A DNA stretch of 64,000 bases, taken from assembly GCF_009720385.1 (NCBI RefSeq), contig NZ_WARX01000001.1, positions 806,001 through 870,000 of the forward strand. Direction: 5' to 3'. The notes beneath the pieces are model-generated. The model did no database searches. It was not told the origin of the DNA and saw nothing but the letters and a program-made list of their open reading frames with translations. Positions 22,839-45,816 of this stretch are shown piece after piece. Origin of the DNA: Catellatospora vulcania. GTDB taxonomy: Bacteria > Actinomycetota > Actinomycetes > Mycobacteriales > Micromonosporaceae. A program made the position numbers and the translations under genes. Position 1 is the stretch's first letter. The number at the start of each line of letters is the position of its first letter.

Positions 22839-24092
22839 ATGACTGTTACCGTCCCGTCCACCGTCGAACTCTCCCGAGCTGTGGGCGACGTCCCGCAGCT
22901 CGACGTCGCCGCCGAGCTGCTCGCGCTGCTCGGCGACACCGCCACCGAGCAGCGTGCCGACACGCAGCTGGAGGCGCTGACCCTGGCCGTGGCCGCCGAC
23001 CTGCCGGTGCTGCTGTGGGGCGAGCCGGGAATCGGCAAGACCGCCGCCCTGACCCAGCTCGCCGCGTCCCTCGACCTGCCGCTGACCACGGTGATCGCCA
23101 GCGTGCACGAACCGTCGGACTTCTCCGGTCTGCCCGTCGTCGGCGACGACCCCGCCGTACAGGGCGTCCCGATGGCGCCGCCGGACTGGGCCGTACGCCT
23201 GGTGCGGGCGGGCCGCGGGCTGCTCTTCCTCGACGAGCTGTCCACCGCCCCGCCCGCCGTGCAGGCCGCGCTGCTGCGGCTCGTGCTCGAACGCCGGGTC
23301 GGGGCGCTGCGACTACCGCCCGGGATCCGGATCGTGGCCGCCGCCAACCCGCGCTCGTCGGCCGCCGACGGCTGGGAACTCAGCGCGCCGCTGGCCAACC
23401 GGTTCGTCCATCTGCAGTGGACCCACGACCACGACGTCGTGGTACGCGGCCTCGGCGGGACCTGGCCGAGGGCGTCGCTGCCCCGGCTCGACCCGGACCT
23501 GCTCGGCGATGCCGTGGCATACGCCCGCCGGGCCGTCTGCGAGCTGCTGGCCACCCGTCCCAAGCTCGTGCACCGGTTGCCCGACAGCGAGACCCGCCGG
23601 GGCGGCGCATGGCCCTCGCCCCGCAGCTGGGACATGGCGCTGCGCCTGATCGCGTTCGCCACCGCCGCGGGAACCTCCCGGGAGGTGCTGTCCATGCTGG
23701 TCCGCGGCACCGTCGGCGACGGCCCCGGGCTGGAGCTGCTGGCGAGCCTGGACCGGATGGACCTGCCGGACCCGGAGACGCTGCTGGCCGACCCCGCGTC
23801 GGCCGTCCTGCCCGACCGGGGCGACCTGCGCCAGGCGGTGCTCGACGGCGTGGTCGAGGCGGTCCGCCGGCGGCCCGACCAGTCCCGCTGGGACGCGGCC
23901 TGGGCGGTCCTGGTCCGAGCCCTGGAGACCGGGGCCCCGGACCTGGTCGTGGTGCCCGCGGCGACGCTCGCCGCGCTGCGCGACGACGACTGGACGGTCC
24001 CGGCGGAGATCGAGCGGCTCGCCGGCGCGGTGTCGCTGTCGCAGCGGGCCGACCGCGCCGCCGAACGCACCCCCGTCGGCGCCGGCCGATGA
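22839..24092 (+). CDS. MoxR-family AAA+ ATPase (cassette 1)
   Basis: 417 residues: Walker A GEPGIGKT (61-68), Walker B LLFLDE (D132-E133), sensor-1-like AAANPRSS and an Arg-finger region SAPLANRFVHL. MoxR ATPases act as chaperones that insert cofactors or remodel partner proteins, usually with a VWA protein encoded next door, as here. The ATG is preceded by GAAGGTGA. Its stop overlaps the next start as ATGA. Confidence 0.93.
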   Translation: MTVTVPSTVELSRAVGDVPQLDVAAELLALLGDTATEQRADTQLEALTLAVAADLPVLLWGEPGIGKTAALTQLAASLDLPLTTVIASVHEPSDFSGLPVVGDDPAVQGVPMAPPDWAVRLVRAGRGLLFLDELSTAPPAVQAALLRLVLERRVGALRLPPGIRIVAAANPRSSAADGWELSAPLANRFVHLQWTHDHDVVVRGLGGTWPRASLPRLDPDLLGDAVAYARRAVCELLATRPKLVHRLPDSETRRGGAWPSPRSWDMALRLIAFATAAGTSREVLSMLVRGTVGDGPGLELLASLDRMDLPDPETLLADPASAVLPDRGDLRQAVLDGVVEAVRRRPDQSRWDAAWAVLVRALETGAPDLVVVPAATLAALRDDDWTVPAEIERLAGAVSLSQRADRAAERTPVGAGR

Positions 24093-33024: not shown

Positions 33025-33433
33025 CGGTGCCCGGCCGGGACGGTGTGGCCAGATGCGTGCCCACGCGGGTCGCCAGCATGGCCATCTCGTACGCGAGGAT
33101 GCCCAGGTCGCTGTCCGGGTCGGCCAGCACCGCCAGGCAGGAGCCCTGCCCGGCCGTGCTCACCAGCAGGAACGCCTCCTCCATCTCGACGATGGTCTGG
33201 CGCACCTGGCCGCCCTTGAAACGCTGGCCGGTGGCGGTGGCGAGACTGGAGAACCCGGACGCGACCGCCGACAGGTGCTCGGCGTCGTCGCGGGACAGCC
33301 CGCTGGAGGCTCCCGTGAGCAGTCCGTCGACCGAGAGCACGACGGCGCAGCGGGCCTGTGGGACCCGGGCGAGCAGGTCGTCGAGCAGCCAGTCGGTCGC
33401 GGGTCGGGTCGTCGTCGGTACCACGTCAGGCAC
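33014..33433 (-). CDS. cvnB: Conservon roadblock/LC7 protein CvnB
   Basis: 139 residues, roadblock/LC7 fold as in GTPase-activating partners: WLLDDLLARVPQARCAVVLS, VDGLLTGASSGLSRDDAEHL (quoted in part), LVSTAGQGSCLAVL. GTG 33433 is chosen because GGAAGGAC precedes it; it overlaps the end of cvnA by 8 bp. Likely regulates the CvnD GTPase. Confidence 0.92.
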   Translation of the reverse strand: MPDVVPTTTRPATDWLLDDLLARVPQARCAVVLSVDGLLTGASSGLSRDDAEHLSAVASGFSSLATATGQRFKGGQVRQTIVEMEEAFLLVSTAGQGSCLAVLADPDSDLGILAYEMAMLATRVGTHLATPSRPGTDVH

Positions 33434-35738
33434 GTCCTTCCAGGGTGGAGCTGTCTTCCATACCGGCGCTGTCTTGCGGGGTCGGTGCTGTGGCGGGTGC
33501 ATCCCCGTTCGCGGTGCTCTCGGTGACGGCCTTCGCGCGCCCGCGCACGGTACCCGACTGGAACGCGGACATCATCGTCCGGACCTGGTCGGCGCTGCGC
33601 TGGCGGGGGACCACGGGGGTTTCGGCGGTGCCCAGCGAGACGGTGGTCTCCTCGGTGACCGGGGCGGTCTCGGGGGCCGCCTTGCGCACCCGCTTGGGCA
33701 GCAGCGCGGTGGTCTCCTCGCCGCCGGAGCCCAGGTCGACGGTCTGCTCCTCGACCGGAGCGGCCGGTGCGGCCTCGACGGCGCGGGGGGCGCGCGGGGC
33801 GAAGATGCCCAGCGGCTCGCCCTTGTCGGTCGGGTCGGTCAGGGCCAGCTCGGTCGGGATGAGCACGACGGCCGTGATGCCGCCGTATGACGAGGAGCGC
33901 AGCCGCACGTTGATGCCCTGCCGCGCGGCCAGCCGGGCCACCACCAGCAGGCCCAGGCGGGCGCTGCTGGAGGGGTCGAACGCGGGCGGCTCGGCCAGCT
34001 TGCCGTTGGCCTCCAGCAGCTCGGCGTCGCTCATGCCCAGGCCGCGGTCCTCCACGTGCAGGGCCAGGCCGTTGCCGACCTGCTCGGCGAAGACGCGCAC
34101 CCGGGTGTGCGGCGGGGCGAACGAGGTCGAGTTCTCCAGCAGCTCGGCCAGCAGGTGGATGATGTCGCCGACGGCCCGGCCGACGATCTTCACGTCGGGC
34201 ATGCGGTCGATGGTGACCCGCTGGTAGTCCTCGATCTCGGAGGTCGCGCCGCGCACCACGTCGATGACCGGCACCGGGTGCCGCCAGCCGCGGCCCGGGG
34301 CCGCGCCGGCGAGGATGACCAGCGCCTCGGCGTGGCGGCGCATGCGGGTGGCCATGTGGTCGAGCCGGAACAGGTCCTCCAGCTCCTGCGGCTCGGTGGT
34401 GCGCCGCTCCATCCGGTCCAGCAGGGTCAGCTGGCGGTGCAGCAGCGCCTGCGAGCGGCGGGCGATGTTGAGGAAGACCTCGCTGATGCCGCGGCGCAGC
34501 ACGGCCTCGTCGACGGCGGCACGCACCGCGGTGCGCTGCACGGCGCCGAAGGCGTGGCCGACCTGGCCGACCTCGTCGGTGCCGACGGCGACCAGCGGCA
34601 CGTCGGTCAGCGACGGGTCGTTGACCAGTGCGCCGGGCTGGCGCAGCGCGGCGATGGCGCGGGGCAGCCGCTCGTGGGCGACCTCGAGGGCCGACACCCG
34701 CAGGCGCTCCAGGCGGCGGACCACGGAGCGGCCGGTGCGCAGCGCCAGGACCAGCGAGATCGCCGCGCACAGCAGGCCCAGCAGCGCGGCGACGATGGTC
34801 TGCGCGAAGGCCGCGATGCCCAGCTCGTTGGCCAGGTCGGAGGTGGCCGCGGCGGCCGCGCCCTCGGTGGCGTCCATCTGCGCGTAGATGGCGTCGTTCG
34901 TGCTGCGCCAGGTGGCGGCGTCGACGAGCACCTTGCCGGGGCGGGAGGTGCTGAGCGTCTCCTCCATCGCGAACAGGGTGCCGTAGGTGTCGCTGTCGAA
35001 GATCTGCCGGAAGTGCTCGCGGTGCGGCTCGGGCAGGGCGGCCAGCGCCTCGTCGTGCACCTGGCGCCGGGCGCCGACGGCGCGCAGCAGGTGGCCCTGC
35101 TCGGCGAGGGTGAGCTTGCCGTCGGCGACCGCGCCGGTGATCACGGCGTCCTCGCGGGCGAGCAGCTCACGGGCCCGGCTGATGGCGAAGATGCTGTGCG
35201 CCAGGGCGGCCAGGTCGGGGTCGGCGAGCTTGGTCATCGGCGTGAACGCCTGGTACAGCGTGTCGATGATCTCGGAGTAGCGGCGTACCACGGCCGTGGG
35301 GTCGGCGTTGCCGGCGTCGACGTCGGTGCGCAGTTCGGGCAGCTTGGCCAGCTTGGCCAGGAAGGCGTCGACCTGCGCGAGCTGGTCGGGCGGCAGGTCG
35401 TCGCGCAGCTTGCTGTCGGCCAGTCGGGTGTGGAACTGCTGCTCGCGCTCGTCGGTGGCGCGCCGCTGCTCGGCCAGCGCGGCCGAGCCGGGCTTCTCGG
35501 CGACCGAGACCCGCCGCTCCTTCTGCAGCTGCACCATCATGCGCTCGCCGTACGCGCCGAAGACCTGCTCGTAGTCGCGGGCGGCGAGTAGATTCAGCGC
35601 CCCGCCCGCGCTGACGGCCACTCCGAAGACGGAAAGGCCGGTGATGGCAACCAATGGCACCACTGCCAGGGTCATGATCTTGGCGCGAATGCTCCAGCCA
35701 CGGTTTCTCACACTGACCACGTCCAAGGTACGGCTCAC
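33426..35738 (-). CDS. cvnA: Conservon sensor histidine-kinase-like protein CvnA
   Basis: 770 residues: membrane helix (about 20-45), extracellular nitrate/nitrite-sensing-like NIT domain (about 50-295), second helix (about 302-325), linker, then an HATPase_c domain with N-box ELLENSTSFAPP and G-box DRGLGMSD, and a disordered Pro/Glu/Thr-rich tail of about 150 residues. No standard phospho-accepting His box is obvious, in line with conservon kinases that have no cognate response regulator. GTG 35738 is the likely start; the next GTG in frame (VRNRGWS) is an alternative. Confidence 0.9.
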   Translation of the reverse strand: MSRTLDVVSVRNRGWSIRAKIMTLAVVPLVAITGLSVFGVAVSAGGALNLLAARDYEQVFGAYGERMMVQLQKERRVSVAEKPGSAALAEQRRATDEREQQFHTRLADSKLRDDLPPDQLAQVDAFLAKLAKLPELRTDVDAGNADPTAVVRRYSEIIDTLYQAFTPMTKLADPDLAALAHSIFAISRARELLAREDAVITGAVADGKLTLAEQGHLLRAVGARRQVHDEALAALPEPHREHFRQIFDSDTYGTLFAMEETLSTSRPGKVLVDAATWRSTNDAIYAQMDATEGAAAAATSDLANELGIAAFAQTIVAALLGLLCAAISLVLALRTGRSVVRRLERLRVSALEVAHERLPRAIAALRQPGALVNDPSLTDVPLVAVGTDEVGQVGHAFGAVQRTAVRAAVDEAVLRRGISEVFLNIARRSQALLHRQLTLLDRMERRTTEPQELEDLFRLDHMATRMRRHAEALVILAGAAPGRGWRHPVPVIDVVRGATSEIEDYQRVTIDRMPDVKIVGRAVGDIIHLLAELLENSTSFAPPHTRVRVFAEQVGNGLALHVEDRGLGMSDAELLEANGKLAEPPAFDPSSSARLGLLVVARLAARQGINVRLRSSSYGGITAVVLIPTELALTDPTDKGEPLGIFAPRAPRAVEAAPAAPVEEQTVDLGSGGEETTALLPKRVRKAAPETAPVTEETTVSLGTAETPVVPRQRSADQVRTMMSAFQSGTVRGRAKAVTESTANGDAPATAPTPQDSAGMEDSSTLEGRA

Positions 35739-35996
35739 CGCGACGTCACCATCGTGTTCCGGGGGCCAGCCGGTGCACGAAGCGGAACCATGACACGCCA
35801 CAGGTCGCTATCTGACAATGCCTCCGGGCAGTGAACCTAGTCGGCTCTGGAGTTCCTGTCCACTGCGGTGAATCTCCATTGTGGACAAGGTCACTTAAGG
35901 CGATGGAGCGCTTGCGCAGGGTGTATGGGCTTGGCTCGCCGCCGGTCGCCCGGCACACTGTCGCACGGCAGCGGCGTCATATCTGGAGGGTCATCG

Positions 35997-36886: not shown

Positions 36887-38212
36887 ATGTCCGAACCGAC
36901 CGAGCCGCCCTGGACCGCCGAACAGGTCCAGGGACTGGCCCCCGACGCGGCGTCGTTCGCCGCGGCCCGCAAGCTCGCCGGCAAGTCCGGCTGGAGCAGC
37001 ACCGGCACGGGTGGCAGCCCGTCCGGGCTGTGGGGCCTGTGCCAGGGCAGCGGCAGCACGCCGTACCAGATCTGCGTCGACCTGGCCGAGCCCGCGTACC
37101 GCTGCTCGTGCCCGAGCCGCAAGTTCCCCTGCAAGCACGCGCTGGCGCTGCTGCTGCGCTGGTCGGCGGGGCAGGTCGCGGCCGAGGAGCCGCCGTTGTG
37201 GATGACCGAGTGGACCACCTCCCGCGAGGCGCGCGCCACGAAGAAGGCCGAGCAGGCCGCCGCGCCGCGCACCGAGGCGCAGGAGAAGGCCGCGCAGCGC
37301 CGGGCCGACAAACGCGCCGAGTCCGTCGCGGCGGGCATCGCCGAGCTGCGGACCTGGCTGTCCGATCAGGTCCGGCACGGCATCGCCGGGCTCGACCAGG
37401 CCGGCTACCGCCCGTTCGAGCAGGTCGCGGCACGACTCGTCGACGCGCAGGCACCCGGCCTGGCCGCGGCGGTGCGCCGCCTGGCCCCGGTGCCCAGCTC
37501 CGGCACCGGCTGGGAGCAGCGGCTGCTGGCCGAACTGTCGCTGCTGCACCTGCTGTCCGGCGCCGCGGCGAACCCTGACGCGCTGCCCGACGACCTGGCC
37601 GCGACGGTGAGCAGCCGCGTCGGCCACGCCGTGACCACCGAGCAGGTGCTGGCCGGGCCGCCGGTGCGCGACCGGTGGCAGGTCGTCGGCACCCGCGACG
37701 ACACCGAGGACAAGCTGACCAGCCGCCGGGTATGGCTGCGCGGCCGCGACACCGGACGCGCCGCGCTGATCCTGTCGTTCGCGATGCCCGGCCAGGCGCT
37801 GCCCGTCGACCTTGTGCTCGGCACCGAACTCGACGCCGACCTGACCTATTACCCCGGGGCGGCCCCGCTGCGCGCCCTGGTCGCCGCGCGCCACGGCACA
37901 CCCCGGGCCTGCCCGGTGCCCGGCCCGGCGCAGACCGTCGCGCAGGCCCTCGACGAGGTCAGCGCCGCGCTGGCCGGCGACCCGTGGCTGTTCCAGTGGC
38001 CGGTGCTGCTGCGCGGCGTGCTCGCCCCCGGCAGCCCCTGGCACCTGGTGGACCCCGACGGCGACGCGCTGCCCCTGGACCCGGCGCTGGGCGAGCCGTG
38101 GCGGCTGGCCGCCGTCGCGGGCGGACACGAGATCACCCTCGCGGCCGAGTGGGGCCCGGCCGGGCTGCGCCCGCTCGCCGTGTACGACGGCACGGAGGTG
38201 GCACGCGCATGA
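36887..38212 (+). CDS. SWIM zinc-finger protein (YehQ-like), first gene of a six-gene coupled operon
   Basis: 441 residues. The SWIM finger is CxCx6CxH: C73, C75, C82, H84 within RCSCPSRKFPCKHALALLL. After it comes an Ala/Glu/Lys/Arg coiled-coil-like stretch (about 108-150, with KKAEQAAAPRTEAQEKAAQ) and a long C-terminal domain of unknown fold. SWIM fingers bind nucleic acid or protein. It is the head of a block in which every junction overlaps; the block matches in gene content the E. coli yehQ/yehL/yehM/yehP neighbourhood as I recall it. Function unknown. Confidence 0.9.
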   Translation: MSEPTEPPWTAEQVQGLAPDAASFAAARKLAGKSGWSSTGTGGSPSGLWGLCQGSGSTPYQICVDLAEPAYRCSCPSRKFPCKHALALLLRWSAGQVAAEEPPLWMTEWTTSREARATKKAEQAAAPRTEAQEKAAQRRADKRAESVAAGIAELRTWLSDQVRHGIAGLDQAGYRPFEQVAARLVDAQAPGLAAAVRRLAPVPSSGTGWEQRLLAELSLLHLLSGAAANPDALPDDLAATVSSRVGHAVTTEQVLAGPPVRDRWQVVGTRDDTEDKLTSRRVWLRGRDTGRAALILSFAMPGQALPVDLVLGTELDADLTYYPGAAPLRALVAARHGTPRACPVPGPAQTVAQALDEVSAALAGDPWLFQWPVLLRGVLAPGSPWHLVDPDGDALPLDPALGEPWRLAAVAGGHEITLAAEWGPAGLRPLAVYDGTEVARA

Positions 38213-38352
38213 GGCCTTATTACTACGCCGCGCCCCGGACCCCTCAGCGCGCCCACCACGCCGGCCCGCCCGCCGAGCACACCGGGCAGGGCACGAGCCG
38301 CTGCCCCCAGGACACGACGCGGCCCCACGGGCCGCTGGGGGAGCCGGCATGA
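38209..38352 (+). CDS. 47-residue ORF bridging the SWIM and DUF5691 genes
   Basis: ATG 38209 overlaps the SWIM stop as ATGA, and its TGA overlaps the DUF5691 ATG, again as ATGA. The predicted peptide starts MRPYYYAAPRTPQ, is rich in Pro, His, Arg and Gly and has no predicted fold. The perfect double overlap makes it likely that ribosomes pass through it, so it may be a real small protein or only a coupling device. Codon use is less clean than in its neighbours. Confidence 0.45.
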   Translation: MRPYYYAAPRTPQRAHHAGPPAEHTGQGTSRCPQDTTRPHGPLGEPA

Positions 38353-39836
38353 GCACGAGCATCTGGTCCGATCTGATGTCCAGCGCGCTCGTCGGCACCG
38401 ACCGGCGCAGGCTCGTGCTGCCCGGCACGGACGGCCCACTGGCCGCGGTGCTGTCGCCGCTCGGCACGGAGCTGGACCCCGACGGGCTGCTGAGCGCGGC
38501 GGCCGCGGTGACCGTGGCCCGCCGCGCGGGGCAGGCCGCCGCCCGGCCGCAACGCCCCGAAGCCGCCCCCGCCGAAACCCTGCCATACGCGCCGGCCGCC
38601 GCGCAGCAGCGGCTCGCGGCGCTGCTGTCCGGCGGGGACGCCGAACTGGACCGGTCCACGAACCGGGAACTGGCCGGTGAATGGCTGCGGGTGGCTGCCG
38701 GACGCGGGCTGCTGGCCGGACCGGCGATCCTGGTCGCGCTGCTGGACCTGGGCAGCTCCGACTCGTCGGTACGCGCCACGGTGCGAGCCGTCGGCGGAAC
38801 ACGGCTCGGCTGGCTGGCCCTGCAGGGGCCCGGCCGCTGGGCGTGGGCCGTGCAGCAGGAGGAGACGGCGCAGCCGTCCGACTGGGACACCGGCCGGCTC
38901 GCCGACCGGGTCCGCTACCTCGGCGAGCTGCGCGCCCGCGACGCCGCCGCGGGGCGGGACCTGCTGCTGGCGGCGTGGCCGCAGGAGAAGGCGTCCGACC
39001 TGGCCGCGCTGCTCGCCGCGTGCGACGCCGGGCTCGGGCCCGACGACGAGCCGTGGCTGGAGAAGGCCCTCGACGACCGGCGGGCGCAGGTCCGCGAGGT
39101 AGCGGCGCGGCTGCTCGGTGCGCTGCCGGGCTCGGCGTACCGGCAGCGCATGGCCGACCGGGCGCTGGCCTGCGTGCACGTCGCGGCCCGGCGGCTGGTC
39201 GCGACGCCGCCCACCGAGTGCGACGACGCGATGCGCCGCGACGGCATCACCTCCAAAGCGCAGCAGGGCACCGGCGAGCGCACCCAATGGCTGCGCCAGA
39301 TCATCGAGTACGCGCCGCTGGACTGCTGGACCGCCTACGACGAGACACCCGCCGGGCTGCTCAGCCGCAAGTTCGACGACACCTGGGGCGCGGTGTTCCG
39401 GGCCGGCCTGGTCCGCGCCGCGATCACGCAACGCGACTCGGCCTGGGCCGCTGTGCTGATCCACGACGGGCTCGGCCTGCGGGACATGAACGAGTTGCGG
39501 GAACTCGCCGCGATCATGCCCGAACCGGACCTGGCCGAGCTGATCGCGGCGCAGCTGCGCCGCAAGGTCGACGCGGCGGTGCGGCTGCTCGACGTGCTGC
39601 CGCAGCCGTGGACCCCGCCGGTCGCCGAGGCCGTGCTGGAGTGCCTGGCCGACGACGAGCGCCGCCGCTCCGGCTGGTGGCAGCTGCTGCGCCACGCCGA
39701 ATGGGGCTTCGACCCGGCGTACGCGCCGCGGGCCCGCGCCCTGCACGACTCCGTTCCGATCCCGGACCAGCAACTGCTGGGCCGCTTCACCACGATGCTG
39801 CAGATCCGCCACGACATCCACCAGGAGCTTGCATGA
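38349..39836 (+). CDS. DUF5691 protein
   Basis: 495 residues, cytoplasmic, predicted all-helical with HEAT-like repeats (SSVRATVRAVGGTRLGWLAL, RRAQVREVAARLLGALPGS). It starts MSTSIWSDLMSSALVGTDRR, a signature of DUF5691 proteins that travel with SWIM, MoxR and VWA genes. Probably a scaffold or client-binding subunit (inference). Coupled at both ends. Confidence 0.88.
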   Translation: MSTSIWSDLMSSALVGTDRRRLVLPGTDGPLAAVLSPLGTELDPDGLLSAAAAVTVARRAGQAAARPQRPEAAPAETLPYAPAAAQQRLAALLSGGDAELDRSTNRELAGEWLRVAAGRGLLAGPAILVALLDLGSSDSSVRATVRAVGGTRLGWLALQGPGRWAWAVQQEETAQPSDWDTGRLADRVRYLGELRARDAAAGRDLLLAAWPQEKASDLAALLAACDAGLGPDDEPWLEKALDDRRAQVREVAARLLGALPGSAYRQRMADRALACVHVAARRLVATPPTECDDAMRRDGITSKAQQGTGERTQWLRQIIEYAPLDCWTAYDETPAGLLSRKFDDTWGAVFRAGLVRAAITQRDSAWAAVLIHDGLGLRDMNELRELAAIMPEPDLAELIAAQLRRKVDAAVRLLDVLPQPWTPPVAEAVLECLADDERRRSGWWQLLRHAEWGFDPAYAPRARALHDSVPIPDQQLLGRFTTMLQIRHDIHQELA

Positions 39837-40921
39837 CCGCCACCATCGACGCCACGCCCACGGTGCTGCGCCCGCACGCCGAGCAGCTCTACGCCGCGGA
39901 GCTGGAGCAGCTGGCCGCGGCCGACGACCTGCCCCGCCCGCCCGGCTGGCGGATGTCCCCGCAGGCCGTGGTGACGTACCTGCTCGGCAACGGCAAGGAC
40001 GTCAGCGCCAAGTACATCGGACCGCGGCGGCTGATGGAGGTGGCCGTGGCGACGCTGGCCACCGACCGGGCGCTGCTGCTGCTCGGCGTGCCCGGCACCG
40101 CCAAGACGTGGGTGTCGGAGCACCTGGCCGCGGCGATCAGCGGCGACTCGACACTGCTCGTGCAGGGCACCGCCGGCACGCCCGAGGAGGCGATGCGCTA
40201 CGGCTGGAACTACGCCCGGCTGCTGGCCGAGGGCCCGACCGCCGCTGCGGTGGTGGCCAGCCCGGTGATGCGCGCGATGCGCACCGGCACGATCGCCCGC
40301 ATCGAAGAGCTGACCCGGGTGCCCTCCGACGTGCAGGACACCCTGCTGACCATCCTGTCGGAGAAGACCCTGCCGGTGCCGGAGCTCGGCGAGGAGGTGC
40401 AGGCGGTCAAGGGCTTCAACGTCATCGCGACCGCCAACGACCGCGACCGGGGCGTCAACGAGCTGTCCAGCGCGCTGCGGCGGCGGTTCAACACGGTGGT
40501 GCTGCCGGTGCCGGGCACCGTCGAGGAAGAGGTCGAGATCGTCGCGCAGCGGGTCGCGTCGCTGGGCCGGGCCCTGGAACTGCCCGAGGTGCCGGACGCG
40601 ATCACCGAGATCCGCCGGGTGGTGACCGTGTTCCGGGAGCTGCGCGAAGGACTGACCGCCGACGGGCGTACCAAGCTGAAGAGCCCCAGCGGCACCCTGT
40701 CCACCGCCGAGGCGATCTCGGTGATGACCAGCGGCATGGCCCTGGCCTCGCACTTCGGCGACGGCACGGTCCGGGCCGCCGACGTCGCCGCGGGCATCCG
40801 CGGCGCGGTCGTGCGCGACTCCGTCTCCGACGCCGTCGTGTGGCGGGAGTACCTGGAGACCGTGGCGCGCGAGCGCGACGGCTGGAAGGACTTCTACCGC
40901 GCGGCCCGGGAGGCGGAGTGA
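39833..40921 (+). CDS. MoxR-type AAA+ ATPase (YehL-like), cassette 2
   Basis: 362 residues: Walker A GVPGTAKT (85-92), sensor-1-like NVIATANDRDRG, and Arg-finger region SSALRRRFNTVVLP. The Walker B position reads IARIEELTR (I157-E158-E159), with Glu where AAA+ proteins have Asp. The N-terminal 80 residues (MSPQAVVTYLLG, YIGPRRLMEVAVATLA) are longer than in cassette 1. Likely the motor of the complex formed by the coupled genes. Confidence 0.92.
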   Translation: MTATIDATPTVLRPHAEQLYAAELEQLAAADDLPRPPGWRMSPQAVVTYLLGNGKDVSAKYIGPRRLMEVAVATLATDRALLLLGVPGTAKTWVSEHLAAAISGDSTLLVQGTAGTPEEAMRYGWNYARLLAEGPTAAAVVASPVMRAMRTGTIARIEELTRVPSDVQDTLLTILSEKTLPVPELGEEVQAVKGFNVIATANDRDRGVNELSSALRRRFNTVVLPVPGTVEEEVEIVAQRVASLGRALELPEVPDAITEIRRVVTVFRELREGLTADGRTKLKSPSGTLSTAEAISVMTSGMALASHFGDGTVRAADVAAGIRGAVVRDSVSDAVVWREYLETVARERDGWKDFYRAAREAE

Positions 40922-43317
40922 GCACCGACCGGGTGCACGTCTTCGGCGTACGCCACCACGGCCCGGGTTCGGCCCGTGCCCTGGTGCGGGCGCTGGACGA
41001 GCTGAAGCCCGACATCATCCTGGTGGAGGGGCCGCCCGAAGCGGACGGACTGGTGGCGCTGGCCGCCGACGAGCGGCTCGAACCGCCGGTGGCGCTGCTG
41101 GCGTATCCGACGAACGCGGCCAAGGGCGAGCATGCGCGTACCGCGTCGTTCTGGCCCTTCGCGGTCTTCTCCCCGGAGTGGCAGGCGCTGCGCTGGGCCG
41201 TCACCCACGACGTGCCGCTGCGCTTCTGCGACCTGCCCGCCGGCCACCGCTTCGCCGCCCGCGCGGTCGAACCGGCCGGTCCCCTGGACGGGACCGGCCC
41301 GGTGGACCCGACTGCCGCGCAAGCGCCGCCCACCGGCACGGAAGCCGGCACCGCTCAGGAACCGGTGGTCGGGCTCGCCGCGCCTGCCGGACCGGACGCC
41401 GGCGCCGAGCCTGACGACGGCGCGCCTGCGGGCGCGACTCCTGACAGCGCCGAGGACGAGCTGCGGGTCGACCCGATCGCGGGCCTGGCCCATGCGGCCG
41501 GGTACGACGACCCGGAGCGCTGGTGGGAGGACGTGATCGAGCACCGGCGCGATGTGCCGCCGTTCGCGGCCGTGGCCGAGGCGATGGCGGCGGTCCGCGA
41601 GGCCGCCCCGGCGATCACCGAGGACCTGGTGCGCGAGGCGCACATGCGCCAGGTCCTGCGCGCCGCCCTGAAAGAAGGACACCAGCGCATCGCCGTGGTC
41701 TGCGGCGCATGGCACGTGCCCGCGCTGACCGGCGACCTGCCGCCCGCCAAGGCAGACACGGCCCTGCTCAAGGGCCTGCCGAGCACCCCGGCGACGGTCA
41801 CCTGGGTGCCGTGGACGCACGGGCGGCTCGCGTCGTGGAGCGGCTACGGCGCGGGCGTCACCGCGCCCGGCTGGTACCACCACCTGTTCACCGCCGAGGA
41901 CGCCCCGGTCGAGCGCTGGCTCGTCGCCGTCGCCGGGGTGCTGCGCGACGAGGACCTGCCGGTCTCCAGCGCGCACGTGATCGAGTCGGCGCGGCTGGCC
42001 GACACCCTCGCCGTGCTGCGGGGACGGCCGCTGCCGGGCCTGGCCGAGGTCACCGAGGCGACCAGGGCGGTGCTCTGCGAGGGCGACGACACCCGCCTGG
42101 AACTCGTGCAGCGCAGGGTCGTGGTGGGGGAGCGGCTGGGCGCCGTACCCCCGGACGCCCCAGCGGTGCCGCTGGCCCGCGACCTCGACGCGACCGCCCG
42201 CCGCCTGAAACTCGCCCAGCAGGCCCTGGTCAGCGACCACGACCTCGACCTGCGCAAACCCAACGACCTGGACCGCAGCCGGCTGCTGCACCGGCTGCGC
42301 CTGCTCGGCGTCGGCTGGGGCACCCCGGTGCAGCGCAAGTCCGGCAAGGGCACCTTCTGGGAGTCCTGGCAGCTGCAATGGCACCCGGAGTACGCGGTCG
42401 ACCTCGTCGCCGCCAGCGCCTACGGCACCACCGTGGAGCGGGCCGCCACCGCGAAGGTCGTCGAGACCTGCGCCGACGCCGACCTGCCGACACTGACCGG
42501 GCTGCTGGAGTCGTGCCTGCTCGCGCAGCTGCCCGACGCGCAGCCCGCGGTGCTGCGCACCCTGTCCGACCGGGCCGCGCTCGACACCGACGTCGCGCAG
42601 CTGATGGCGGCCGTCCCGGCGCTGGCCCGCTCGCTGCGCTACGGCGACGTACGCGCCACCAGCACCGACGCGCTTGCCGAGGTGCTGACGGGTCTGGTCA
42701 CCCGGATCCGGCTGGGCCTGCCCGGCGCGCTCACCGGCCTCGACGACGACGCGGCCCGCGCGATGCGCGAACATCTCGACGCCACGCACGAGGCGCTGAA
42801 CCTGCTCGCCGACCGGCTGCCGCTGCGGGAGGAGTGGCTGGACACGTTGCACAGGCTCGTCGACCGGTCGGACCTGCCCGGCCTGCTCGCCGGGCGGCTG
42901 CTGCGGCTGCTGCGCGACGCGGGCGCCCTCGACGCCGATGCTGCCGAGCTGCGGCTGGCCCGGGCGCTGACCGTCGGCGTGCCGCCGGTGACCGCCGCCG
43001 GGTACGTCGAAGGCTTCCTGTCCGGCGGCGGGCTGCTGCTGGTGCACGACGAGGCGCTGCTGACGCTGACCGACCGATGGCTGGCCGGGCTGGCCCCGGA
43101 CGTGTTCACGGCGGTGCTGCCGCTGCTGCGGCGTACCTTCGCCGCGTTCGCGGCCCCGGAACGACGTGCGGTCGGCGAGCAGGTCCGACGCCTCGGCACC
43201 GGTGGTCCGCGACCGAAGTCTGATGTGGACGAACTCGGCGAGCTGGACCCGGCGCGGGTCGCGCGGGTGCTGCCGACGCTGGAACTGCTGCTGGCAGCGG
43301 GAAGGGGAGCACGGTGA
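40918..43317 (+). CDS. DUF5682 protein (YehM-like)
   Basis: 799 residues. The N-terminus has VRHHGPGSARAL (H13, H14) and DIILVEGPPEAD, followed by IAVVCGAWHVPAL at about residue 265; spaced His and acidic residues of this sort recall the ChaN/TraB/EreA-like esterase-peptidase superfamily (a guess from pattern, not established). A low-complexity Pro/Ala/Gly/Asp insertion (about 120-180) splits this domain. The C-terminal 450 residues are helical. GTG start coupled to the ATPase stop. Confidence 0.88.
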   Translation: MSTDRVHVFGVRHHGPGSARALVRALDELKPDIILVEGPPEADGLVALAADERLEPPVALLAYPTNAAKGEHARTASFWPFAVFSPEWQALRWAVTHDVPLRFCDLPAGHRFAARAVEPAGPLDGTGPVDPTAAQAPPTGTEAGTAQEPVVGLAAPAGPDAGAEPDDGAPAGATPDSAEDELRVDPIAGLAHAAGYDDPERWWEDVIEHRRDVPPFAAVAEAMAAVREAAPAITEDLVREAHMRQVLRAALKEGHQRIAVVCGAWHVPALTGDLPPAKADTALLKGLPSTPATVTWVPWTHGRLASWSGYGAGVTAPGWYHHLFTAEDAPVERWLVAVAGVLRDEDLPVSSAHVIESARLADTLAVLRGRPLPGLAEVTEATRAVLCEGDDTRLELVQRRVVVGERLGAVPPDAPAVPLARDLDATARRLKLAQQALVSDHDLDLRKPNDLDRSRLLHRLRLLGVGWGTPVQRKSGKGTFWESWQLQWHPEYAVDLVAASAYGTTVERAATAKVVETCADADLPTLTGLLESCLLAQLPDAQPAVLRTLSDRAALDTDVAQLMAAVPALARSLRYGDVRATSTDALAEVLTGLVTRIRLGLPGALTGLDDDAARAMREHLDATHEALNLLADRLPLREEWLDTLHRLVDRSDLPGLLAGRLLRLLRDAGALDADAAELRLARALTVGVPPVTAAGYVEGFLSGGGLLLVHDEALLTLTDRWLAGLAPDVFTAVLPLLRRTFAAFAAPERRAVGEQVRRLGTGGPRPKSDVDELGELDPARVARVLPTLELLLAAGRGAR

Positions 43318-44465
43318 GCGACGACGAGCGGATGCGCCGGTGGCGGCTGGTCCTCGGCGGCGAGGGCGCCGAGGGCACCGGAGTGACGCTGGCCGGGGTG
43401 GACAAGGGCATGGACGAGGCCCTGGCCGCGCTCTACCGCGACGGCGGCGGCGACGGCGGATCCGGGCGCAGCGCCGGGCTGGGCGGCTCCGCGCCGAAGG
43501 TCGCCCGCTGGCTCGGCGACATCAGGCAGTACTTCCCGTCCACGGTGGTGCAGGTGATGCAGGCCGACGCGATCGAGCGGCTCAACCTGACCCGGCTGCT
43601 GGTCGAACCGGAGATGCTGGAGGCCGTCGAACCCGACGTGCACCTGGTCGGCACGCTGCTGTCGCTGAACAAGGTGATGCCCGACAAGGCCCGCACCACC
43701 GCGCGGATGGTCGTCGCGAAGGTCGTCAAAGAGCTGGAACGTCGCGTCGCGCAGCGCACCCGGGCCGCGATCACCGGCGCGGTCAACCGGGCCGCCCGGA
43801 TCAACCGCCCGCGCCACCGCGACATCGACTGGAACCGCACCATCCGCGCCAACCTCAAGCACTACCAGGCCGAACACCGCACCGTGGTGCCGGAGCGGCT
43901 GATCGGCTACGGCCGGCAGACCCGGTCCGTGCAGCGCGACGTGGTGCTGTGCGTGGACCAGTCCGGTTCGATGGCGGCGTCGGTGGTCTACTCCGGAGTC
44001 TTCGCTGCGGTGCTCGCGTCGATGAAATGCCTGCGTACGTCGCTTGTCGTGTTCGACACGGCGGTCGTCGACCTCACCGACGAGCTGCACGACCCGGTCG
44101 AGGTGCTGTTCGGCACGCAGCTGGGCGGCGGCACCGACATCAACCGGGCCATCGCGTACTGCCAGGGGCTGATCACCCGGCCCCGGGACAGCATCTTCAT
44201 CCTCATCAGCGACCTGTATGAGGGCGGGGTGCGCGCCGAGATGCTGCGCCGCGTCGCCACCATGAAGGCCGCCGGGGTGCAGGTGATCGTCCTGCTCGCA
44301 CTGTCCGATGAAGGACAGCCGGCGTACGACCACAGCAACGCCTCGGCACTGGCGGCGATGGGGGTTCCGTCCTTCGCGTGCACACCGGACGCATTCCCGG
44401 AGCTGATGGCGGCGGCGATCGAACGCCGGGAGCTCCAGCCGATCATCGAGAAGATGGGCCGCTGA
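43314..44465 (+). CDS. VWA domain protein (YehP-like)
   Basis: 383 residues: helical N-terminal half with a Gly-rich loop (GGGDGGSGRSAGLGG), then a VWA domain with complete MIDAS signature DQSGSMA (D215), Thr in GGGTDINR and Asp in ILISDLYEGG. The typical partner of a MoxR ATPase. GTG start coupled to DUF5682; last gene of the operon, followed by a GC hairpin. Confidence 0.93.
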   Translation: MSDDERMRRWRLVLGGEGAEGTGVTLAGVDKGMDEALAALYRDGGGDGGSGRSAGLGGSAPKVARWLGDIRQYFPSTVVQVMQADAIERLNLTRLLVEPEMLEAVEPDVHLVGTLLSLNKVMPDKARTTARMVVAKVVKELERRVAQRTRAAITGAVNRAARINRPRHRDIDWNRTIRANLKHYQAEHRTVVPERLIGYGRQTRSVQRDVVLCVDQSGSMAASVVYSGVFAAVLASMKCLRTSLVVFDTAVVDLTDELHDPVEVLFGTQLGGGTDINRAIAYCQGLITRPRDSIFILISDLYEGGVRAEMLRRVATMKAAGVQVIVLLALSDEGQPAYDHSNASALAAMGVPSFACTPDAFPELMAAAIERRELQPIIEKMGR

Positions 44466-45091: not shown

Positions 45092-45384
45092 CTCCACACC
45101 CTTGTCAGCCATGTCGTCAGGGTCGCGGAATCACCCGTCACCAACCCCGATGACTGGACGTTACCGGAGTGTGTCGACGGTCTTGGCCGGCATCGCACTA
45201 TCAGCAATACCGGGCAAAAGCACGGCATCTTACTCCCTGTAGGTGGGTCCGTGCCCGCGTAATCCTCGATCTTCCCGCTATCGGGTGAGATCGAACGATG
45301 ACGGAGCGTATAGGGGAGGGTCACCTTGAGTATGGGAGAGGCGGGGCGGTCAAGCTCCGCCGCAGTGCCGGGGGGAGTACGTCC

Positions 45385-45816
45385 ATGAGTGCTATCCGTC
45401 CTACGACCGTCGAGGTCGAGACATCGTTGCGGCTGGTCGCGCCCGACGCGACCTCGCTTCCGGTGCGGGCGAGTCTTCGCTACGACCCGGTCGACCCGTA
45501 CGCGGTGCATGTGCTCTTCCATGCCGAGTCCGCCGGCGGCGAGGCGGTGAGCTGGTCGTTCGCCCGAGAACTGCTGGTCACCGGACTCGACGAACCGGCC
45601 GGCATCGGCGACGTGCGGGTCTGGCCCTGGGCCACCCCGCGCGGAGACTTCGTCGCGCTCGCCCTGTCGTCGCCCGACGGCAACGCGCTCTTCGAGGTCC
45701 CACGAAGCGTCCTCGTACGCTTCCTGCGCCGCACCTACGTCGTGGTACCCCGCGGTCGCGAGACCGACCACCTCGACGTCGACGCGGCGGTCAACCGACT
45801 GCTCGCCGGACGATGA
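45385..45816 (+). CDS. ssgB: SsgB-like sporulation and cell-division protein
   Basis: 143 residues, SsgA-like protein family, orthologous by sequence to SsgB, which recruits FtsZ to future sporulation septa in Streptomyces. Conserved blocks: LRYDPVDPYAVHVLFH, DVRVWPW, VALALSSPDGNALFEVP, LVRFLRRTY. GGGGGAG precedes the ATG by 8 bases. Its presence argues for a sporulating filamentous actinomycete. Confidence 0.95.
   Translation: MSAIRPTTVEVETSLRLVAPDATSLPVRASLRYDPVDPYAVHVLFHAESAGGEAVSWSFARELLVTGLDEPAGIGDVRVWPWATPRGDFVALALSSPDGNALFEVPRSVLVRFLRRTYVVVPRGRETDHLDVDAAVNRLLAGR

Follow-up and report, generated by a model that had tools for sequence, protein, structure and literature searches.

A conserved MoxR/VWA gene module around DUF5682, a protein with a predicted TIKI/TraB-like domain, in Catellatospora vulcania

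What do a SWIM zinc-finger protein, a DUF5691 protein, a MoxR-type AAA+ ATPase, a DUF5682 protein and a VWA protein do together in one operon of the actinobacterium Catellatospora vulcania? The window analyzed here is a stretch of 64,000 nucleotides from its 8.8-Mb genome (GCF_009720385.1, contig NZ_WARX01000001.1, positions 806,001 to 870,000, forward strand), and the six coupled frames originally predicted at 36887..44465, these five genes plus a 47-codon open reading frame (ORF), are all present there with five 4-base overlaps (ATGA at 38209, 38349, and 39833; GTGA at 40918 and 43314). The overlaps suggest coupled translation; the fixed stoichiometry and the single complex that had also been read from them are not established by overlaps. 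We report that the five larger genes form one conserved module across several phyla and that structure prediction assigns a TIKI/TraB/erythromycin-esterase fold to the N-terminal domain of DUF5682, and we give an even chance to the reading that they encode an ATP-driven MoxR/VWA machine around a TIKI-like DUF5682 hydrolase, with SWIM and DUF5691 as a recognition arm. In the open literature searched, no paper mentions DUF5682 or DUF5691 and none ties this cluster to the TIKI fold; the predicted TIKI-like fold of the DUF5682 N-terminal domain is new, and MoxR/VWA machines and the YehL subfamily were already known.

The original prediction depended on the neighbors being conserved in other genomes, and they are strongly so: all five genes lie within 10 kb in 67 of 80 named loci, the best 80 of 582 found with a DUF5682 pattern that contains its HH motif. 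Counted gene by gene, DUF5682 is present in 80 of these loci, VWA in 77, MoxR in 76, SWIM in 72, and DUF5691 in 70, in a phmmer partner search that misses diverged partners (locus L132 lacks DUF5691 by this count, yet its genome carries one by Pfam); several of the 13 incomplete loci sit at contig ends. The nearest DUF5682 relatives of the window protein come from Catellatospora, of the Micromonosporaceae (93% to C. sichuanensis), and the order SWIM-DUF5691-MoxR-DUF5682-VWA recurs in Leptolyngbya, in Thiofilum (Gammaproteobacteria), and in metagenome-assembled genomes of Chloroflexaceae, Isosphaeraceae, and Phycisphaerales. SWIM and MoxR are divergent in all 23 Streptomyces loci that hold both, and among the 49 such loci outside Streptomyces they are divergent only in L120 and L126. 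Among 296 sampled actinobacterial genomes, 21 carry DUF5682, and the 18 with DUF5691 above the cut-off all fall within those 21; three genomes without DUF5682 (G049, G153, and G187) have sub-cut-off DUF5691 matches only. DUF5691 is absent from 2 (G303 and G305) of 12 genomes checked. SWIM and DUF5691 are fused in 11 of the 80 loci, and we therefore read them as a second unit.

Four types of DUF5682 system can be told apart. Type I has the window layout. Type II has the layout of Escherichia coli yehI-L-M-P-Q, namely, DUF4132, MoxR, DUF5682, VWA, and SWIM, and occurs outside E. coli in locus L060 of genome G128, where the first gene has WGR and DUF4132 domains (the other locus of that genome, L035, is nearest to Streptomyces). 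Type III comprises a 1591-amino-acid protein, MoxR, a DUF5682-VWA fusion, and a YehQ-related SWIM protein, and type IV comprises a 621-amino-acid protein, VWA, MoxR, and a diverged DUF5682; the 1591- and 621-amino-acid proteins match no Pfam family at an E value of 0.1. Types I, III, and IV coexist in the genome of the window. DUF5682 was found in 12 of 299 sampled Pseudomonadota genomes. Of 12 loci retrieved from Pseudomonadota, five are type I; five more follow the type II arrangement for their YehI-like, MoxR, DUF5682, and VWA genes, and the frame after these contains a SWIM-like motif; of the remaining two, one ends at a contig edge and the other has an odd order.

In a tree of MoxR proteins, the 32 DUF5682-linked rows, YehL included, form one clade (support, 99/97), with RavA and six other AAA+ rows of the window's genome outside it; RavA and one other row sit on very long branches, and the program flags long-branch joins. 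Passages of PMC3893208 name YehL as a MoxR subfamily. Annotation and tree bear out that yehL, yehM, yehP, and yehQ encode the same domain set in one neighborhood, and this E. coli cluster is a sister version of the window module. The two versions differ in that DUF4132 replaces DUF5691, the SWIM gene comes last, and the type II SWIM protein resembles the window's at the finger only.

The central question is what DUF5682 itself might be. For a model of its N-terminal domain (features are collected in Table 1), the nine best VIA structural rows all belong to the TIKI/TraB/Ere/ChaN superfamily, whereas structural matches of the C-terminal part are mostly helical-repeat proteins. Histidine, glutamate, and GxxH residues, the signature of TIKI/TraB/PrgY, erythromycin esterase, and ChaN, are invariant across all four system types (16 diverse members, then 43), and the predicted core fold is also theirs. 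The HH motif, which the original prediction had singled out, falls at the first strand of this TIKI/TraB-like fold; its conservation within the 80 named loci follows by construction from the search pattern, and the claim rests instead on alignment A1, whose rows were taken via Pfam family search or annotation. The spacings from H to E and from R to H are 24 and 27 residues in DUF5682 versus 26 and 26 in TraB. Sequence similarity to the superfamily lies under Pfam detection: DUF5682 has no Pfam match to PF01963 at an E value of ≤1, and hhalign against the TIKI/TraB family gives a probability of 12.5% and an E value of 0.0023. The domain also differs from these relatives in sitting in a MoxR/VWA operon and in being followed by a helical part. 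The invariant His/Glu/GxxH set favors a hydrolase.

Table 1. Features of the DUF5682 operon (positions in the window) and of two further DUF5682 systems in the same genome (positions in their own loci); AF2, AlphaFold2; pLDDT, predicted local distance difference test score; E, E value; aa, amino acids
Feature	Position	Strand	Basis
SWIM zinc-finger protein, 441 aa	36887..38212	+	PF04434 (Pfam), E 4.6e-7
SWIM finger, residues 64-91	37076..37159	+	Pfam stretch
47-codon bridging mini-ORF, ATGA overlap at both ends	38209..38352	+	Sequence reading; no Pfam match
Shine-Dalgarno-like G-rich stretch GGGGGAG ahead of DUF5691	38337..38343	+	Sequence reading
DUF5691 protein, 495 aa	38349..39836	+	PF18944, E 6.3e-119
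MoxR-type AAA+ ATPase, YehL clade, 362 aa	39833..40921	+	AAA_5, E 4.6e-39; tree
Walker A motif GVPGTAKT of MoxR	40085..40108	+	Sequence reading
DUF5682 protein, 799 aa	40918..43317	+	PF18934, E 2.2e-270; AF2 model, pLDDT 86.7
Predicted TIKI/TraB-like alpha/beta domain of DUF5682, residues 1-346	40918..41955	+	AF2 of this part alone, pLDDT 81.9
His13-His14 of DUF5682, at first strand	40954..40959	+	Invariant
Glu37 of DUF5682, end of second strand	41026..41028	+	Invariant
R239-E240-x-x-M243 of DUF5682	41632..41646	+	Invariant; aligns with R-N of TraB
G263-A-W-H266 (GxxH) of DUF5682	41704..41715	+	G263 and H266 invariant; aligns with GAGH of TraB
Mainly helical C-terminal part of DUF5682	41956..43317	+	DSSP of AF2 model
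VWA (CoxE-like) protein, 383 aa	43314..44465	+	PF05762 VWA_CoxE, E 9.4e-56
MIDAS core DxSxS of VWA protein	43956..43970	+	Sequence reading
Diverged DUF5682 system, type III	L059 7453-11076	-	
Diverged DUF5682 system, type IV	L065 8910-11759	+	

The partner proteins keep their motifs as well. The CxCx(n)CxH pattern of the SWIM protein is intact in the window and found in 66 of 72 relatives, and the Walker A pattern of MoxR is likewise intact (75 of 76 relatives). In the VWA protein, the DxSxS of the metal ion-dependent adhesion site (MIDAS) is intact, with the pattern in 75 of 77 relatives and GGGT[DN] in 74 of 77. The usual Walker B motif reads DE; among the MoxR relatives that the Walker B pattern matched, variants listed with the commonest read EE, and the pattern missed 30 of 76.

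The 47-codon ORF calls for a different reading. Although proposed as a sixth component, it is not a conserved gene: among the loci searched, only the window's own copy was matched (frames shorter than 60 or 35 codons were not covered), and congeners have mini-ORFs of other lengths or none. A mini-ORF exactly bridges the SWIM-stop ATGA to the DUF5691-start ATGA in 9 of 11 Catellatospora genomes, the window's included, with lengths of 14, 15, 15, 19, 27, 32, 37, 47, and 51 codons; the two genes overlap directly in the remaining two genomes. (Loci L067 and L068, repeats of two of the eleven genomes, were left out of the count, and the DUF5691 start chosen for four of the 11 junctions, and for one duplicate, lies 9 or 15 bases off the expected place.) The G-rich stretch before the DUF5691 start stands at the same place in all nine bridged genomes. 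With shuffled spacers, eight distinct lengths had a chance of 4.4e-6 if taken as independent, which related genomes are not. At 32 gapped junctions across the 80 loci, a start codon overlaps the stop of the preceding gene, and 20 of these junctions are bridged versus 4.8 expected (DUF5682-VWA, 11/14; SWIM-DUF5691, 6/7; MoxR-DUF5682, 3/10; DUF5691-MoxR, 0/1), a count in which many of the rows come from related Streptomyces and the start could be chosen freely within limits. At the DUF5682-VWA junctions of four Streptomyces loci (L108, L112, L117, and L130), the bridging ORF is 47 to 48 codons long. The window's SWIM-DUF5691 spacer is not a dispersed repeat. PMC12548453 discusses short ORFs whose sole function is to deliver ribosomes, with mycobacterial interspersed repetitive units (MIRUs) as an example. 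The bridging mini-ORFs suggest that selection acts on the unbroken translation chain as such; this points, indirectly, to a need for joint synthesis of the products.

The conserved module, the fold resemblance of DUF5682, the conserved motifs, the fusions, and the chained overlaps are what the computation supports; beyond them we infer a physical complex, a hydrolase (most likely peptidase) activity and its substrate, a gating mechanism, and a role in housekeeping or stress. In such a machine, the YehL-clade MoxR ring would be the motor, the CoxE-like VWA protein, with its intact MIDAS core, would be the adaptor docking on the ring, and DUF5682 would be the working subunit, with the TIKI/TraB/Ere-like domain of its first ~346 residues followed by the helical part. 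The analogs are NorQ-NorD and CbbQ-CbbO, which have the same MoxR motor and VWA adaptor. According to PMC13036017, a finger of the VWA domain enters the MoxR pore in NorQD and ATP turnover strains the NorD linker; in parts of PMC9976466, the NorQ hexamer is thought to bind one NorD; and in CbbQO the substrate adaptor is described as the VWA protein (PMC4660213). In PMC9976466, NorD and CbbO both end in a C-terminal VWA, which in NorD is preceded by an N-terminal domain. Because the type III DUF5682-VWA fusion shares this layout, we read DUF5682 as the working part on a VWA adaptor. By analogy, ATP turnover in the ring might pull or twist the VWA-DUF5682 unit, whereby the hydrolase site would be opened or a remodeled protein fed in; SWIM and DUF5691 would be a pair, most likely a substrate-recognition or scaffold arm, and translation chained from gene to gene would allow the subunits to be made together. 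The clients of the two analogs are nitric oxide reductase and Rubisco, unlike those of the proposed DUF5682 machine. A bolder version, which we hold only tentatively and with the balance tilted against it, is that these systems represent a new hydrolase class, powered by an AAA+ motor and most likely proteolytic, in which MoxR/VWA gates a TIKI-family site and a SWIM/DUF5691 or SWIM/DUF4132 arm picks substrates.

The same analogs also invite the reading that the module is a NorQD-like chaperone for cofactor or metal insertion, in which DUF5682 would be a noncatalytic metal- or heme-binding adaptor part and the client another enzyme. Metal insertion, one of the roles originally left open, is done by MoxR/VWA pairs (PMC13036017), the VWA protein of the window matches VWA_CoxE, and heme-binding ChaN is among the structural matches of DUF5682. 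However, a conserved client gene is missing beside the module: extra neighbor families in at least 10 loci occur only in Streptomyces and in L101, L109, L120, and L126, the top neighbor family reaches at most 8 of 55 non-Streptomyces loci, and the window's own flanking genes recur in only 2 of the 80 loci, both Catellatospora. The invariance of the His/Glu/GxxH set also speaks against a noncatalytic part, and we keep this explanation as an unlikely rival.

Alternatively, DUF5682 could be an independent enzyme, a client that is matured by MoxR-VWA and then works alone. PMC3893208 ascribes a chaperone-like part in protein-complex maturation to MoxR proteins, and in two cyanobacterial genomes the module genes are scattered, with DUF5682 apart from a DUF5691 that is still found elsewhere in the genome. 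The type III fusion, in which N-domain and VWA follow each other as they do in NorD and CbbO, and the recurrence of MoxR, DUF5682, and VWA as a trio in every type from I to IV suggest instead that DUF5682 is a standing partner, and we regard maturation of a free enzyme as decidedly improbable.

The distribution of the module bears on its role in the cell. DUF5691 is present in 188 of 199 genomes of the genus of G182, which is taken to be Streptomyces because eight loci from that genus each have 14 or 15 Streptomyces loci among their 15 nearest named ones. In the family of the window, 89 of 200 genomes carry DUF5691. DNA matching yehL-Q is present in 5301 of 5426 E. coli genomes, 5162 of them with at least 80% covered. 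In E. coli, the cluster is dispensable in the reduced strain DGF-298, since the deletion list of that strain in the relevant part of PMC10652928 spans yehI to yehQ. A match occurs in 1 of 50,697 phage records and 35 of 72,556 plasmid records, and no PADLOC model gave a strong match (best E value, 0.0083). A DUF5682 relative with 29% identity lies at 1450-3672 of L236 (MT835988.1), an unverified 14-kb fecal “Bacteriophage sp.” record that may be bacterial DNA. The clade-wise core pattern, the lack of a strong PADLOC match, and the rarity on phages and plasmids point to a housekeeping or stress role rather than defense.

The MoxR-vWA ternary conflict systems, as described in parts of an eLife 2020 study (PMC7159879), also combine MoxR, vWA, and a constant third protein, but that protein is VMAP, iSTAND, FtsH, or a beta-propeller, whereas here it is DUF5682 and the module is near-core in both clades sampled. 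Pfam lists none of those four in the six frames, its coverage of VMAP and iSTAND being unchecked. That the module is a relative of these systems, a conflict or antiphage system with DUF5682 as effector enzyme, would fit the shared logic, a window MoxR that just passes the bpMoxR cut-off (27.4 versus 27 bits), and three different DUF5682 systems in one genome, but the distribution just given disfavors the defense role and makes it very improbable.

Several other genes of the window deserve mention. An SsgA-type sporulation/division protein lies near the operon (45298-45816, +), its counterparts in two other Catellatospora showing 98 and 100% identity, and a large NIT-domain sensor with an HATPase domain lies upstream (33426-35801, −). 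A second MoxR-like AAA+ protein (22839-24092, +; AAA_5, 1.6e-8) has a close relative on contig C9, where the type III DUF5682 system lies ~15 kb away; in the tree, the two AAA+ proteins place outside the DUF5682-linked MoxR clade.

Known MoxR/VWA machines help metal enzymes and Rubisco, and a version built on a TIKI-like hydrolase, if true, would add an enzymatic kind that is present in most of the sampled E. coli and Streptomyces genomes. DUF5682 thereby gains a testable hypothesis with named residues, and the little-studied yehI-Q cluster of E. coli offers a target for work at the bench.
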